IMG/VR virus record: IMGVR_UViG_3300009421_000016
Span: 1 to 21,590 of that record
Reading direction: 5' to 3' (one strand)
DNA: 21,590 nt
Source: a virus
Under the pieces are notes generated by a model that saw only the letters and a program-made list of their open reading frames with translations, had not been told where the DNA came from and did no database searches. A program made the translations under genes and the position numbers. Of the stretch, positions 2,277-13,754 are shown one piece after another. The stretch's first letter is position 1, and the number at the start of each line of letters is the position of its first letter.

Positions 2277-3175
2277 GCACCACCAAACCCACGCTCGCCG
2301 TCGAGATGCGCCGGACCGAGGCGCTGATCCCCTACGCGATGAACGCCAAGGTGCACACCCCGGAGCAGATCGCGGCCATCGCCGCGTGCATCCGGGAGTT
2401 CCATTTCTGCAACCCCGTTCTGATCGACCCCGAGGGCGGAATCATCGCCGGGCACGGGCGGGTGCTCGCCGCCCGAAAGCTCGCGCTCGAGGAGGTTCCG
2501 ACGATCACCCTCGGGCATCTCACCGACGCCCAACGACGGGCCTACATCATCGCCGACAACCGTCTCGGCGAGATCGGCGGCGGCTGGGATCGGGAACTGC
2601 TCGAGACCGAGCTCGAGAGCCTTTCAGCCGAGGAGATCGACCTCGAGCTCGTCGGCTTCGAGATCGGGAACCTCGATATCGCGCTCGGCCCCCTCGACGG
2701 TCTCGCCCCGGAGGCCTCGGCCGAGCCCGAGTCGGGGACCGACCCCGAGTCGGGGACCGCCCCCCCGGAGAACTACTCGCGCAAGATCGAGGCGCCGATC
2801 TACGAGCCGCACGCCGATAGAGCGCCCCCCGTCACGGACCTGTTCGACCGCACCCGCGCCCTGGCGCTGCTCGAGCGCATCGACGCCGTCGCCGACGAGC
2901 TCGAGCCCGAGCTCGTCGACTTCCTCCGCTGCGCCGCCGAGCGTCACACACGGTTCAACTTCCGCAACATCGCCGAGTTCTACGCCCACGCCGACGCCGA
3001 CGTGCAGGCGCTGATGGAGGACAGCGCGCTCGTGATCATCGACTTCGATCGCGCCGTCGAGCTCGGCTTCGTCAAGCTCTCAGAGGAGGTACTGCGCCTT
3101 CGCGCCGAGAGCGACGAGCTCGCCGAGAACAAGGACGACGACGGGGAGGAGGACGATGAGCGCCTCGCCGCCTGA
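2273..3175 (+). CDS. ParB/sulfiredoxin-fold protein, phage DNA-modification type
   Basis: The start is ATG 2273 (MSTTKPTLAV), overlapping the previous stop. The frame stays open upstream, but that part only shadows the previous gene. The protein has 300 residues. Residues about 15-105 form a ParB N-terminal-like domain: L-I-P-Y-A-M-N-A-K, then P-V-L-I-D, then the box GGIIAGHGRVLAARKL at 55-70, then Y-I-I-A-D-N-R-L. This variant is typical of phage and plasmid proteins near methylases and terminases, not of chromosome partition ParB, and there is no ParA beside it. A Pro/Glu/Ser linker (about 145-165) follows. A second block (about 166-275) carries N-Y-S-R-K-I-E-A-P-I-Y-E-P and later I-A-E-F-Y-A-H-A-D and A-L-V-I-I-D-F-D. 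I recall such a block in phage proteins next to TAGT-like glycosyltransferases. The acidic C-terminus ends inside the next gene, a 20-base overlap. Likely role: DNA or nucleotide binding partner of the glycosyltransferase. Confidence 0.85.
   Translation: MSTTKPTLAVEMRRTEALIPYAMNAKVHTPEQIAAIAACIREFHFCNPVLIDPEGGIIAGHGRVLAARKLALEEVPTITLGHLTDAQRRAYIIADNRLGEIGGGWDRELLETELESLSAEEIDLELVGFEIGNLDIALGPLDGLAPEASAEPESGTDPESGTAPPENYSRKIEAPIYEPHADRAPPVTDLFDRTRALALLERIDAVADELEPELVDFLRCAAERHTRFNFRNIAEFYAHADADVQALMEDSALVIIDFDRAVELGFVKLSEEVLRLRAESDELAENKDDDGEEDDERLAA
2726..2758 (+). repeat. 18-bp period tandem duplication in the ParB-protein linker
   Basis: A 15-base unit, CCCGAGTCGGGGACC, occurs at 2726-2740 and again at 2744-2758. 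Being 18 bases apart, the copies keep the frame and encode a repeated P-E-S-G-T-D/A in the linker between the two conserved blocks. It looks like a recent in-frame slippage event in a flexible linker. Confidence 0.8.
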
Positions 3176-4049
3176 TCCGTTCGAGAGCTTCTGTGCCCTG
3201 ATCCTGACGAACCGCCGCAGCGAGCACGTCCACACCTACTCGACGCTGCGCCGCAACGGCTACACCGGGCCGATCGTGCTCGTGGTCGATGACGAGGACC
3301 CGAGCGTAGAGGACTACCGTGCACGCTTCGGCGACGACGCCGTGCAGGTGTTCGACAAGCGGGCCATCGCCGCACGCTTCGACGAGGGCGACAACTTCGA
3401 GGACCGACGCTCGATCTTCTACGCACGCAATGCCTCGTTCGACATCGCCGAGGCGCTCGGCTACCGCTACTTCATCCAGCTCGACGACGATTACACCGGC
3501 TTCGGCTTCCGATTCCGAGCCGACGGCACCTACGGCACCGGCGTGGTGCACAACCTCGACGGACTCCTTCGTGCCGTGCTCGCGTTCTTCATCGCCACCC
3601 CGGCACTGAGCTCCGTTGCGCTCGCGCAGGGCGGGGACTTCATCGGCGGGGGCGCCAACAGAACTACAGCCGCCTCTATCTGCACGCTCCGCAAGGCAAT
3701 GAATAGCTTCGTTTGCGATACGCGGCGTCGCTTCGAGTTCCTCGGTCGCGTCAACGAGGACGTGAACACCTACAGTGCATCGCAGCGCAGCGGCCGAGCG
3801 CTGTTCCTCACCCTCAACGCCGCCTCGATCACGCAGCTCACGACCCAGGCGAATGCCGGCGGGCTGACCGAGATGTACCGCGACTCCGGCACCTACGTGA
3901 AGAGCTTCTACTCGGTGCTGTACGCCCCCTCGGCGGTGCAAATCGCGATGATGGGGAACATCAATCGCAGGCTTCATCACCACGTGCGTTGGGACGCGGT
4001 CGCGCCGCTGATCCTCTCCGAGCGCCACCGGCGCGCCTCCGCGCCGTAG
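3156..4049 (+). CDS. TAGT-like DNA glycosyltransferase (GT-A fold)
   Basis: The protein has 297 residues. ATG 3156 is preceded by a strong ribosome binding site (GGGGAGGAGG, 3143-3152) inside the end of the ParB-like gene. Residues 14-50 read A-L-I-L-T-N-R-R-S, then T-Y-S-T-L-R-R-N-G-Y-T-G, then V-L-V-V-D-D-E-D, a Rossmann-like nucleotide-sugar half. D-E-G-D-N-F-E-D-R-R follows at about 76-85, and a DxD-type metal site, F-I-Q-L-D-D-D-Y, with the aspartates at 110-112. The second half holds N-E-D-V-N-T-Y near 200, then G-G-L-T-E-M-Y-R-D-S-G-T-Y-V-K-S and an H-H-H-V-R-W near the end. These match my recollection of the TET/JBP-associated glycosyltransferase family of phages, which adds sugars to hydroxymethylated bases in DNA. 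Acting on DNA is inferred from family and context. No TET/JBP or hydroxymethylase gene lies in this window. Confidence 0.82.
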   Translation: MSASPPDPFESFCALILTNRRSEHVHTYSTLRRNGYTGPIVLVVDDEDPSVEDYRARFGDDAVQVFDKRAIAARFDEGDNFEDRRSIFYARNASFDIAEALGYRYFIQLDDDYTGFGFRFRADGTYGTGVVHNLDGLLRAVLAFFIATPALSSVALAQGGDFIGGGANRTTAASICTLRKAMNSFVCDTRRRFEFLGRVNEDVNTYSASQRSGRALFLTLNAASITQLTTQANAGGLTEMYRDSGTYVKSFYSVLYAPSAVQIAMMGNINRRLHHHVRWDAVAPLILSERHRRASAP

Positions 4050-4239: not shown

Positions 4240-4563
4240 GTGGCCCACACCCCGACGGCCGAGACCCGCGATCAGGTCCACAGCTTCGCTGCCGTCGGCA
4301 TCGCGCAGGACGATATCGCGCGCGTGCTCGGGATTGATCCGAAGACGCTCCGCAAGCACTACCGCGACGAGCTCGACACCGCCGCGATCCGAGCCAACGC
4401 CGCCATCGGCGGCGCGCTCTTCAACAAGGCGAAGCGCGGGGACGTCACGGCTCAGATTTGGTGGACAAAGGTGCGCATGGGCTGGAAGGCCGACGCCGGT
4501 AGCGACTCGAGCGAGGATCTTGTGGAGGCGCTCCGCGCGCTCGTGGCGAAGCTGCCGGCGTGA
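4240..4563 (+). CDS. terS: Terminase small subunit
   Basis: This 107-residue protein starts at GTG 4240. Small terminases bind the phage DNA at the packaging site and load the large subunit. Residues about 13-45 form a helix-turn-helix (V-G-I-A-Q-D-D-I-A-R-V-L-G-I-D-P-K-T-L-R-K-H-Y). The second half (I-G-G-A-L-F-N-K-A-K-R-G-D, then A-Q-I-W-W-T-K-V-R-M-G-W-K) is the oligomerisation segment typical of short small terminases, where G-D-x-x-A-x-I-(F/W)-W-L-K-x-R-x-G-W-K recurs. Length is normal for the compact type. Its stop overlaps the GTG start of the large subunit (GTGA, 4560-4563), as expected for translational coupling of the two terminase parts. Confidence 0.92.
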   Translation: MAHTPTAETRDQVHSFAAVGIAQDDIARVLGIDPKTLRKHYRDELDTAAIRANAAIGGALFNKAKRGDVTAQIWWTKVRMGWKADAGSDSSEDLVEALRALVAKLPA

Positions 4564-5924
4564 GCGGCGACGCCCTGGAGGCGCCCGACGCGAGCGCGCT
4601 CCCGGCCGCGCTCCGCGCGAGCCTCGATCGCTGGTACCCCCTTCGCGATCACCCCGTACAGCTGGCGCTGATCAACGCCGTGCCCTCCGGCATCCGCTTC
4701 CCGGTCGTCCCCGCCGGGCGCCGCTCGGGGAAAACCGAGCGATTCAAGCGCTTTCTAGTCAAGCAGGCGTTCGAGGGCGGGCCGGGCGATCACTTCTTCG
4801 CCGCCGCGCCGACGCGCGATCAGGCAAAGAAAATTTTCTGGGAGGATCTGAAACTCCTGTCCTTCGCCGCGCTGCACGCGCGCCGCCCCTCCGAGTCCGA
4901 GCTACGGATCTATCTCGATAACGGCGCTCAGATCCACGTCCTCGGGCTCGATCGTCCGCAGCGGATCGAGGGCGTGGCGTGGACGGGGGGCGGGATCGAC
5001 GAGATTGCCGACATTCGCGAGGCGGCGATCGACTCGAACATCATGCCGGCGCTGAACACCGTCGACCCGCGTCGGCCCGACTACCGCGCGTGGTGTTGGT
5101 TCCTCGGCGTCCCCGACGGGCTCAATCACTACTACCGCATGGCCCAAGCGGCCACCCTCGAGAGCAACCCCGAGTGGGCGCTGTTCACCTGGACGAGCGC
5201 GGAGATCCTGCCCGTGGACGTGATCGAGGCGGCCCGGCGGACGATGTCCGAGCGGCAGTTCCTGCAGGAATACTGCGCGAGCTTCGAGGTCGCCACCGGC
5301 CGGATCTATGACCAGTACGCGGCGGAGAACCTCACCAGCGCGAGGATCGAGCCACACGAACAGCTTCTCTGGTCGCACGATCAGAACTTCACCCCGCTCT
5401 CCTCCTCGATCTCCGTCCGACGAGGGGAGGCGCTCTATCTCCTTGACGAGATCGTGCTCACGAGCGCGGTTGCGCGCCAGGCGGCCGAGGAGTTCGTCGA
5501 GCGCTTCGAGGGGCACAAGAACAAGCATGTGCTGATCTTCGGCGACCCTGCCGGGCGCGCCGGTGAGAAGCACGGGCATCCCTCCGATTACCGCGAAATC
5601 GAGAACGTCCTACGGGCGAACGGGTGGACGTTCACGCGCCGCGTGGCACGAAAAGCGCCAGCGATCAAGGACCGACAGAACGCGGTGCGCGCGCGCGTGT
5701 GCAACGCCGCCGGTGAGCGCCACCTGTTCGTCAACCCCGTCAGCGCGCCGTGGTGCCACGAGGGCCTGGCCACCGTGCAGCTACAGCCGGGCTCGACGTT
5801 CCAGGAAGACCCGACGAACGACTACCAGCACATCACTACCGCCATCGGCTACCAGGTCGCCGTGCTCTGGCCCGTCTCGCGCGAGATCGTGCGCGCCAGC
5901 GGACCGGTTGCCGGCATGGCCTGA
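4560..5924 (+). CDS. terL: Terminase large subunit (packaging ATPase and nuclease)
   Basis: The 454-residue motor protein pumps DNA into the prohead and cuts the concatemer. The ATPase half shows a Walker A motif G53-R-R-S-G-K58-T, an A-A-A-P-T-R-D-Q-A motif near 82-89, and a Walker B-like G-G-G-I-D147-E148. The C-terminal RNase H-like nuclease half begins near 270, with candidate metal ligands D274 (S-H-D-Q-N-F-T-P) and D329 (F-G-D-P-A-G). The third conserved acid, usually in H-x-x-D-A, reads H424-I-T-T427-A. The protein is slightly short for the family, but both halves are present. The start is GTG 4560, overlapping the small subunit stop. The portal gene follows after about 38 bases. Confidence 0.95.
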   Translation: MSGDALEAPDASALPAALRASLDRWYPLRDHPVQLALINAVPSGIRFPVVPAGRRSGKTERFKRFLVKQAFEGGPGDHFFAAAPTRDQAKKIFWEDLKLLSFAALHARRPSESELRIYLDNGAQIHVLGLDRPQRIEGVAWTGGGIDEIADIREAAIDSNIMPALNTVDPRRPDYRAWCWFLGVPDGLNHYYRMAQAATLESNPEWALFTWTSAEILPVDVIEAARRTMSERQFLQEYCASFEVATGRIYDQYAAENLTSARIEPHEQLLWSHDQNFTPLSSSISVRRGEALYLLDEIVLTSAVARQAAEEFVERFEGHKNKHVLIFGDPAGRAGEKHGHPSDYREIENVLRANGWTFTRRVARKAPAIKDRQNAVRARVCNAAGERHLFVNPVSAPWCHEGLATVQLQPGSTFQEDPTNDYQHITTAIGYQVAVLWPVSREIVRASGPVAGMA

Positions 5925-9227: not shown

Positions 9228-10373
9228 ATGGCCAACAACCTCACGGGTCTTATACCCACCATCTACACCGCGCTCGATATCGTCCGGCGCGAACTGATCG
9301 GGTTCATCCCCAACGTTTCCGTCGACGCTGCCGCCACCGGCGCCGCGGTCGGGCAGACGGTGACCGCGCACGTCGTGCCCCAAGGCGGGCTCGAGGATAT
9401 CGTGCCCGGCGCGCAGCCGGCCGCGAGCGGCGATCACGAGCTCGGGAGCGTCTCGGTCGGGATCACCAAGAGCAAGGCGTACCCGATCCGCTGGACCGGA
9501 GAGGAGCAGCTGGCCCTCGGCCAGAACGGGCAGTACAACGCCATCCTGGCCGATCAGTTCGCGCAGGGCTTTCGCACGCTCTCGAACGCGGTCGAGGCGG
9601 ATCTCGGCTCGCTGTACACGAAGTTCGCCCGCGCGATCGGCACCGCCGGCACTACCCCGTTCGGCGTCGCCGACGATCACTCGGATTGGTCGAACGCCAA
9701 TCGCGTGCTCGACGAGCTCGGGTGCCCGCAATCGGGGCGCGTCATGGTCCTCGGGAGCCAGGCTCGAGCCAAGGTCGAGGGCGTGCAGTCGGGGCTCTTC
9801 AAGGTCAACGAGGCCGGCGACGCGGGCGCGATGCTCCGCGAGCGGCAGCTGCGCGAGATCCACGGCTTCACGATGGGCTTCTCCGCTGGCGTGCGCAATC
9901 ACAGCGGCGGCACCGGCTCGGGCTACCTGGTGAACAACGGCGCAGGGTACGGGGCCGGTGACACCGCCCTCGTGCTCGACACCGGCACCGGCACCGTGCT
10001 GCCCGGCGACGTGGTGACGATCGCAGGCTCGGGCGAGCAATTCGTCGTCGCCTCGAAGTCCGGCTCCGAGCTCACGCTCAACGCGCCGGGGCTCGACACC
10101 GTGATCGTCGACGACGCGGCCGTGACCGTGGTCGGGAACTACACGGCGAACGCCTTCTTTCACCGCAACAGTCTGCTCCTCGCCGCGCGCGCGCCGGCAA
10201 TGCCCGCCGGTGGCGACTCCGCCGACGACGTGATGACGGTGACCGATCCGGTCAGCAACATCACGTTCCAGGTGGCGATGTATCGCCAGTACAAGCAGAT
10301 CAAGTACGAGATCGGATTGGCGTGGGGCGTGGACGCGCCGAACGCGGGCTTGGCAGGCGTCCTGCTCGGCTGA
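9228..10373 (+). CDS. Major capsid protein, P22 coat (gp5)-like
   Basis: The 381-residue protein starts at ATG 9228 after a GAGAGA-type site. Its beginning, M-A-N-N-L-T-G-L-I-P-T-I-Y-T-A-L-D-I-V, with R-E-L-I-G-F-I-P just after, is the characteristic N-terminus of P22 gp5-like coats, an HK97-fold branch. Other family features are G-Q-T-V-T-A-H-V-V-P (residues 42-51) and a central beta-rich insertion, about residues 230-305 (G-D-T-A-L-V-L-D, then L-P-G-D-V-V-T-I-A-G, then V-V-G-N-Y-T). A conserved C-terminal part follows (F-H-R-N-S-L-L-L-A-A-R-A-P and Y-R-Q-Y-K-Q-I-K-Y-E-I-G-L-A-W-G-V). It is somewhat shorter than the P22 protein (about 430 residues). Many copies build the icosahedral shell over the scaffold. 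Confidence 0.94.
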   Translation: MANNLTGLIPTIYTALDIVRRELIGFIPNVSVDAAATGAAVGQTVTAHVVPQGGLEDIVPGAQPAASGDHELGSVSVGITKSKAYPIRWTGEEQLALGQNGQYNAILADQFAQGFRTLSNAVEADLGSLYTKFARAIGTAGTTPFGVADDHSDWSNANRVLDELGCPQSGRVMVLGSQARAKVEGVQSGLFKVNEAGDAGAMLRERQLREIHGFTMGFSAGVRNHSGGTGSGYLVNNGAGYGAGDTALVLDTGTGTVLPGDVVTIAGSGEQFVVASKSGSELTLNAPGLDTVIVDDAAVTVVGNYTANAFFHRNSLLLAARAPAMPAGGDSADDVMTVTDPVSNITFQVAMYRQYKQIKYEIGLAWGVDAPNAGLAGVLLG

Positions 10374-12342: not shown

Positions 12343-12801
12343 ATGAGCACGAACACTTACGCCGGCACGCAGCTCAGTGGCGTTGCCTCCACCCCCGCCA
12401 CCAACGACCAAGCGGGCTTCGAGGCGCTGACGTTCATCACCGGCGGTGCCTCGCTTCGCCAGGTACCGAGCGTCGGGCGCACCTGGAACACCGTCTCGGA
12501 GGACCTGGTGGACACCGAGACCAACACCGACGTGAAGGCGTCCTCGAAATACAAGCCCATGGATTTCCCGGTCGCGATCAAGCCGGGCGACGCCCTGCAC
12601 GCCGTTCTCCGTGGGCTCGAGGAGGATCGCACCGCCGTCGGCTCCTTCAAGCTCGCTCTGCCGGGCGACCTCGGCACGATCTACGTGCAGGCGCAGGTGT
12701 CGATGTTCGACGAGATCGGCGGCGGCGGTCAGGACGCGATCGTAGACGCCAACGTGCAGCTGCTCCCCCAGGCGAAGCCGATCTACGTCGCCGCCCCCTG
12801 A
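12343..12801 (+). CDS. Major tail tube protein
   Basis: This 152-residue protein starts at ATG 12343, 18 bases after the terminator-like gene. It is beta-rich and Gly/Thr/Val-rich: F-E-A-L-T-F-I-T-G-G, then L-R-Q-V-P-S-V-G-R-T-W-N-T-V-S-E-D, then Y-K-P-M-D-F-P-V-A-I-K-P-G-D, then F-K-L-A-L-P-G-D-L-G-T-I-Y-V-Q-A-Q-V and V-D-A-N-V-Q-L-L-P-Q. The G-R-T-W-N-T-V pattern and the position (after a terminator, before the chaperone pair and tape measure) fit a siphovirus tail tube monomer that stacks in hexameric rings. A very strong hairpin follows the gene, consistent with a need for high expression. Confidence 0.82.
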   Translation: MSTNTYAGTQLSGVASTPATNDQAGFEALTFITGGASLRQVPSVGRTWNTVSEDLVDTETNTDVKASSKYKPMDFPVAIKPGDALHAVLRGLEEDRTAVGSFKLALPGDLGTIYVQAQVSMFDEIGGGGQDAIVDANVQLLPQAKPIYVAAP

Positions 12802-12921: not shown

Positions 12922-13356
12922 ATGGACATTCTCGATTACGACACTTCCGCGCGCTCGATCGAAGGGGCTTACATGCCCTTCGTCGACCCGAGTACGGGCG
13001 AGCCCGTGCGCCACCGGGCGAAGGGCGACAAGGAGGAGCGCGAGCTACACCTGGTCCTTCTCGGGCCGGAGGCGCCGGAGTCAATCCGGGTCTTCAAGCA
13101 GCTCCAGCACCGCGCCTCGAAGAAGGGGGCGAACCACTCGCCGTCGGACGCCGAGATCGAGTCCGAGCGCGTGAGCGACGCGAAGGCGGTCGCGCGACTC
13201 GTCGTCGGCGGGCTGCTCTTCAGTGCCGATCGGTGGGTGGACATCACCCGCGAGAACGCGGGGGACTTTCTCTACAAGGTCGGCCCGCTCCGGGGCCAGG
13301 CGGTGAAGTTCATTCTAGACGAGGGAAACTTCACCACGGTTGCCCTGGCAGCCTAG
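12922..13356 (+). CDS. Tail assembly chaperone, short form (lambda gpG-like)
   Basis: The 144-residue protein starts at ATG 12922. Between the tail tube and the tape measure, siphoviruses encode a chaperone that coats the tape measure before the tube polymerises around it. The acidic and charged N-terminal half, the segment A-R-L-V-V-G-G-L-L-F-S-A-D-R-W-V-D-I-T near 94-112 and the position agree with a gpG-like protein. Near the end, the frame carries GAG GGA AAC (codons 134-136), which forms a slippery heptamer. Most ribosomes should read through to the TAG at 13354-13356 and make this form. A minority should shift and make the 277-residue fusion described in the next CDS. Confidence 0.88.
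   Translation: MDILDYDTSARSIEGAYMPFVDPSTGEPVRHRAKGDKEERELHLVLLGPEAPESIRVFKQLQHRASKKGANHSPSDAEIESERVSDAKAVARLVVGGLLFSADRWVDITRENAGDFLYKVGPLRGQAVKFILDEGNFTTVALAA
13323..13353 (+). promoter_or_regulatory. Programmed -1 ribosomal frameshift signal
   Basis: The heptamer G GGA AAC (13323-13329) is in the X XXY YYZ phase relative to the upstream chaperone frame. An 8-base spacer follows, then a hairpin: 13338-13343 (GGTTGC) pairs with 13348-13353 (GCAGCC), with a CCTG loop and one G-T pair. The stop of the short form lies just after (13354-13356). The -1 frame from 13329 runs open to 13754. This is the arrangement known for the lambda G/GT pair, whose slippery sequence is GGGAAAG. Confidence 0.9.
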
Positions 13357-13754
13357 ACGCGCTGCTCGAGTACGCGCAGATGCTCGCCTGGCTCCACCAG
13401 AGGCCCGAGGAGGCGCACCGCTGCAACGGCGAGCGCTACGGGCTCGACGCGCCCGAGGTGGAGCCGGAGAGCGAGCACCTGGCGCGCCTGCTCGACGAGC
13501 TCGGGCACGTCACCCACACCGGCATGGGCGCCGCCCCCCTCAGCTACGCCGAAATCGACGCCTACGCGCGCCTCACGGGGCTGGTGCTCACGCGGGGGGA
13601 GGCGATGGGGCTGAGGATGATGTCCGCCGCCTTCGCCGCGACCGCCAACATCCCCGATGCCCCGTGTCCGATCGAGGACGATCATGCGCGGCGCACGATC
13701 GACGAGGTGAACATCCGGGCGCTGATCCGAATGTGCGAGGCCGGCGATGGCTGA
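13329..13754 (+). CDS. Tail assembly chaperone, frameshift extension (lambda T-like part)
   Basis: This part is read after a -1 shift at 13323-13329. The joined product has 136 residues of the upstream frame followed by 141 here (L-H-H-G-C-P-G-S-L-D-A-L-L-E-Y-A-Q and on), 277 in all. It could also be started alone at ATG 13380 (M-L-A-W-L-H-Q-R-P), but no clear ribosome binding site stands before that codon. The sequence contains Y-A-Q-M-L-A-W-L, then L-L-D-E-L-G-H-V-T-H-T-G-M-G, then L-S-Y-A-E-I-D-A-Y-A-R-L-T-G and E-A-M-G-L-R-M-M-S-A-A-F. These fit a helical gpT-like domain that binds the tape measure and recruits tube subunits. It overlaps the tape measure start by eight bases (13747-13754). 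Confidence 0.85.
   Translation, partial: LHHGCPGSLDALLEYAQMLAWLHQRPEEAHRCNGERYGLDAPEVEPESEHLARLLDELGHVTHTGMGAAPLSYAEIDAYARLTGLVLTRGEAMGLRMMSAAFAATANIPDAPCPIEDDHARRTIDEVNIRALIRMCEAGDG

Follow-up and report, generated by a model that had tools for sequence, protein, structure and literature searches.

Organization of the locus

The window analyzed here is the whole of the IMG/VR virus record IMGVR_UViG_3300009421_000016 (21,590 bases), which comes from an uncultured bacterial virus. Two overlapping open reading frames, G (12922-13356) and T (ending at 13754), lie directly upstream of the tape measure gene, and they are listed with the other features of the locus in Table 1. The ORF at 12343..12801 is probably a tail tube gene, an assignment made from its position alone; it has no Pfam match and a weak PHROG match.

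Table 1. Features of the window, by position.
Feature	Position	Strand	Basis or remark
Terminase	4560-5924		PF03237
P22-type coat protein	9228-10373		PF11651
Upstream tail gene, probably tail tube by position	12343..12801	+	ORF
Gene G, short tail assembly chaperone, 144 aa, ATG to TAG	12922..13356	+	ORF
Slippery heptamer G GGA AAC, in phase with G	13323..13329	+	direct reading
-1 frame T extension, 141 aa after slip (LHHGCPGS...)	13329..13754	+	reading, family match, codon usage
Spacer TTCACCAC, 8 nt, contains Phe codon TTC	13330..13337	+	
Hairpin GGTTGC-CCTG-GCAGCC, 6 bp including one G-U; possible stimulator	13338..13353	+	
Zero-frame TAG stop, short form	13354..13356	+	directly after hairpin
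ATG in T frame, nearest independent start	13380..13382	+	without recognisable Shine-Dalgarno sequence
Tape measure protein, 1952 aa	13747..19605	+	PF10145 PhageMin_Tail, E 1.4e-40

A sequence-only reading of this DNA had placed GGGAAAC in the exact slippery phase, with an 8-base spacer behind it and the short-form stop right after a hairpin. Direct reading bears out all of this: the heptamer stands in the X XXY YYZ phase of the ORF at 12922-13356 (codons GAG GGA AAC TTC, in phase with the ATG at 12922), the spacer fills 13330-13337, and the TAG at 13354-13356 adjoins the end of the stem at 13353. The same reading had the -1 frame open to the tape measure gene, and this is also what we found: the frame is open far upstream of the site and runs on to a TGA at 13752-13754, past the tape-measure ATG at 13747, which the end of T overlaps. 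A fusion product would consist of residues 1-136 of G and the 141 aa of T, or 277 aa.

The P22-type coat protein is 55% identical to those of Escherichia and Salmonella phages, and it coexists in one record with a long tape measure protein. A coat-protein search gave one contig with a coat identical to that of the window (L018), which is short and stops before the shift site, and a second with a coat protein 64% identical (L019), which is too short to reach it.

Coding signal across the G/T boundary

We compared the frames in 45-nt bins by means of a codon score derived from the remaining genes of the window. Through position 13326 every bin scores better in the G frame, 13327-13371 is a tie, and the -1 frame is ahead in all bins of 13372-13731. 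A single switch fits best at about 13345-13353, and the handover of coding signal, from the frame of G to the -1 frame, falls at about 13330-13360. We conclude from this switch that the -1 ORF is genuinely coding and succeeds G where that gene ends.

Statistical weight of the heptamer and the hairpin

As bare letters GGGAAAC is unremarkable, with 2 occurrences in the window against 1.04 expected. When phase is taken into account (17 window genes, 5,939 codon pairs), there are 9 in-phase XXXYYYN heptamers in total, and the GGGAAAC at 13323 is the only in-phase XXX(AAA/TTT)N. Codon shuffling of G places such a heptamer within the last 12 codons with P of about 0.002. With the protein held fixed, synonymous shuffling produces the heptamer 8.5% of the time (0.085): the protein sequence accounts partly for the heptamer, because E-G-N permits it. 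The heptamer needs the codon GGA, which makes up 30 of the 554 glycine codons elsewhere in the window.

The 6-bp hairpin forms as had been claimed, the stem at 13338-13353 folding at -8.7 kcal/mol, but its stability is ordinary for G+C-rich DNA (z -1.1; 26 of 200 shuffles equally stable). Longer stretches around it adopt other folds, and comparison with relatives lends the hairpin of this phage no support either; we regard it as a possible stimulator, a downstream structure being optional at sites of this type. The earlier description of the site as a complete cassette is accurate in that the parts are present letter for letter; it is overstated, since the hairpin of the window is at chance level and the closest relative has no canonical heptamer (see below). 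The same region also holds a 9-bp perfect inverted repeat, GGTGAAGTT/AACTTCACC, at 13302-13310 / 13327-13335, whose loop contains the first four bases of the heptamer and whose 3' arm contains its last three.

Conservation of the proposed shift point

Each of the 24 relatives examined, isolate genomes included, has T in the -1 frame of G, as the window does. Of ten divergent lineages (G mostly 10-49% identical), eight carry an in-phase heptamer within the final 12 codons of G, where 0.31 would be expected (P about 1e-12 by codon shuffling, with the lineages treated as independent); it is missing from L002 and from the phiHSIC-like group. This count leaves out Paracoccus L024 and Stenotrophomonas L028, whose in-phase heptamers come with another layout.

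The letters of the heptamer vary from lineage to lineage, but its location is constant, at one conserved Phe codon that is invariant among the relatives and encodes the last invariant residue of G. The in-phase sequence is A AAT TTT in Salicola phage CGphi29 and Acinetobacter phages, A AAT TTC in Synechococcus phage Yong-M4-211, T TTT TTA in four IMG/VR sequences (L010, L011, L015 and L017), T TTT TTC in Vibrio phages 1.151.O and 137E35-1, and G GGA AAG in Mannheimia phage 1152AP2, so that at least six different heptamers occur at one homologous shift point. Conservation of the heptamer in relatives, which had been proposed as a check, is thus found for an in-phase heptamer in eight of ten lineages, but not for its letters, and not in L002. 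In several relatives, the T frame is free of stops only in the final 19-67 nt of G; a joined product is therefore possible in them only at the slip site.

The closest relative found is L002 (IMG/VR contig 3300009415_000013), in which G is 49% and T about 40% identical and T again lies in the -1 frame of G. Its junction, GTC AAT TTC ACG AAG GGG TGA, contains no canonical heptamer. Within 5405-5423 of L002 the stop of G overlaps a T-frame GTG (GTGA, 5420-5423), and from this arrangement L002 may have switched from frameshifting to re-initiation.

Searches by way of G in genome contigs and of the tape measure N-terminus in viral contigs found no relatives. One candidate relative, L004, was dropped because its T match was weak and no chaperone pair was present. 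Salmonella phage SPF_0923, a relative by its coat protein, has a different chaperone pair with A AAA AAG, in which T is also in the -1 frame. The phage records examined annotate G and T as separate ORFs, with the start of T usually placed downstream of the shift site and no joined gene, and the claim that a standard gene caller would miss the site is plausible.

Relation to tail assembly chaperones

T matches PF23812 Phage_TAC_18 at E 1.2e-4, with a score of 22.5 that is below the curated cut-off of 27. This family matches five of the five T members tested (best 1.7e-5), the other four likewise below the curated cut-off. T also matches phrog_18915 (E 2e-10) and phrog_4966. G itself matches no sequence family, and its relatives L002, L026 and L027 (the Mannheimia phage) match phrog_313, tail assembly chaperone. 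Compared by sequence with solved structures, T has no match and G has chance-level matches alone.

The predicted model of G (pLDDT 82) resembles annotated tape-measure chaperones: the 161- and 310-aa forms of Caulobacter phage Sansa and, to a lesser degree, proteins from Serratia phage Scapp (129 and 236 aa), from E. coli phage K1H and from CcrColossus. Its match to the solved HK97 chaperone 2OB9 is weak and not decisive by itself (Z 4.5 over 100 residues, rank 2 in the PDB). For the model of T (pLDDT 84) the scores are weaker, and its matches include several of the long annotated chaperones that G resembles; both models resemble CcrColossus K4K660. We regard G and T as related to known tail assembly chaperones, weakly for T as judged by Pfam, and for G by its model and the matches of its relatives.

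Frameshifting and its alternatives

We interpret the site as a programmed -1 ribosomal frameshift of the lambda G/GT type, with a probability of about 0.92. The tail-chaperone frameshift had been the original interpretation, and it is supported: the position and phase of the site, the switch of frame, the protein family and the conservation seen among distant relatives all agree with it. Seen directly are the anatomy, the frame switch, the family resemblance and the repeated presence of in-phase slip sites at homologous positions. Counted against frameshifting are the missing heptamer of L002, the shuffle-level hairpin and the in-frame ATG at 13380.

We infer slippage itself, its rate and the roles of the chaperones along the following lines. 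The majority of ribosomes would translate G and terminate at the TAG at 13354. A minority would slip back one base with GGA in the P site and AAC in the A site, re-pair on GGG and AAA, and continue in the -1 frame to 13754, yielding a G-T fusion in which ...ILDEGN is followed by LHHGCPGSLDALLEYAQ... If the lambda roles apply here, the tape measure protein would be coated by G, and tail-tube subunits would be brought in by the less abundant G-T form. The slippage rate may be low, since the heptamer listed as highly shift-prone in E. coli is GGGAAAG, not GGGAAAC (PMC5009743).

T might instead be a separate protein: ribosomes that had finished G would re-initiate, in a coupled manner, at ATG 13380, 24 nt downstream of the G stop, and the heptamer would be there by chance. 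The ATG is in frame, and the GTGA overlap of L002, at a junction where no canonical heptamer is found, is a typical re-initiation arrangement. Yet none of the three T-frame start codons shortly after the site (ATG 13380, GTG 13458 and ATG 13524) is preceded by a recognisable Shine-Dalgarno sequence, a start at 13380 would shorten T as far as the invariant Y-A of its domain, which would be lost as well, and eight of the ten lineages have an in-phase heptamer at this very place; we consider such a start unlikely. The earlier statement that the -1 frame has no good independent start is apt as regards the Shine-Dalgarno sequence before 13380, although an ATG does lie in the frame there.

We give still less credence to frameshifting that is real but occurs mainly at another nearby site, which would leave GGGAAAC a bystander. 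The T frame of the window is open throughout G, so that stops do not exclude other slip points, and the relatives would slip around the next codon, Phe; however, G has no second in-phase canonical XXXYYYN, and the next codons, A AAC TTC, re-pair fully in the P site only. It is hardly credible that the G/T boundary is a sequencing error in what is truly one continuous ORF. Although the window is a single metagenomic record, with no overlapping contig because L018 ends short of the site, the -1 relation of G and T is repeated in the 24 relatives.

Comparison with known frameshift sites

The G/GT heptamer of phage lambda, near the 3' end of G as in the window, is GGGAAAG, ending in G where that of the window ends in C, and the two sites are likened by description, not by sequence. 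As in the window, the lambda order is tail gene, G, T and tape measure, with T in the -1 frame (PMC5009743). That the mechanism is known for tail chaperones, as had been noted, agrees with the wide conservation of the G/GT frameshift among long-tailed phages (PMC5009743). GGGAAAC is the published site of Caulobacter phage Colossus (PMC3556154) and a predicted -1 site in the tail chaperone genes of Burkholderia phage KL1 (gp18/gp19; PMC3483164) and of haloarchaeal virus HCTV-1 (PMC5009743). Colossus shares with the window pre-tape-measure chaperones with this heptamer, its K4K660 resembling the model of G and weakly that of T, but it belongs to another phage group; in KL1 the tape measure gene is not directly adjacent, and the host of HCTV-1 is an archaeon. 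Because the G/GT frameshift is widespread and GGGAAAC has been reported before, we take the site to be an ordinary example of a known mechanism. PRFect, which provides a predictor, found most of the frameshift overlaps it examined to be without an XXXYYY motif (PMC10885494).

Mannheimia phage vB_MhS_1152AP2 (L027) has a layout near-identical to that of the window, reading CTG GGA AAG TTC ... TAA with T in the -1 frame, and its G matches the tail assembly chaperone phrog_313 at E 3e-24. It differs in having GGGAAAG, in having no stable downstream hairpin predicted, and in its G, which is about 17% identical. L002 shares the -1 position of T with the window and differs in the GTGA overlap that stands in the absence of a canonical heptamer.

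Frameshifting would correct the annotation of this phage, with a joined 277-aa chaperone besides the 144-aa one, and would enlarge the collection of natural -1 sites by one lineage. More useful is the comparison, with at least six heptamers at one homologous shift point and one branch that has a conserved hairpin but lacks a heptamer.

A branch without a heptamer

In ten phiHSIC-like Vibrio phages, CTTTTA occupies the shift place instead of a heptamer (L005, 1983-2025, and the homologous place in L006, L007, L012, L013, L023, L025, L030, L031 and L032). A 12-bp hairpin, strict in its placement, begins 6 nt after CTTTTA; all of its pairs are kept in 10 of these 10 sequences, which are related, and three pairs covary, being changed on both sides. 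T is open in these phages solely over the last 19-67 nt of G. Judged from its sequence, this is a candidate non-canonical -1 site that would combine one slipping tRNA with a strong stimulator. Somewhat short of even odds, in our estimate, is a more general proposal for the chaperone family: the shift would be tied to one conserved Phe codon, with the slip sequence itself free to change, and some branches would have lost the two-tRNA heptamer (the phiHSIC-like phages, with CTTTTA and a hairpin, and L002, which may use GTGA). If this is true, CTTTTA with its hairpin would be a P-site-only slip variant, and the family would offer a natural series in which to test the minimal needs of a -1 site.

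Other genes of the window

No Rfam families or tRNAs were found within the 21,590-base window. A TET-associated glycosyltransferase is encoded at 3156-4049 (PF20691 TAGT, E 1.2e-26), directly 3' of a ParB-like ORF, and its presence hints at hypermodified DNA. A complete EAL-domain protein is encoded at 773-1573 (PF00563, E 3.9e-43), with apparently intact EAL, DDYGTG and AEGVE motifs. Its matches in the phage collection are distant (about 24-32% identity among the matches listed), several of them on contigs of bacterial appearance. A c-di-GMP phosphodiesterase, as predicted from this protein, would be unusual cargo for a phage.
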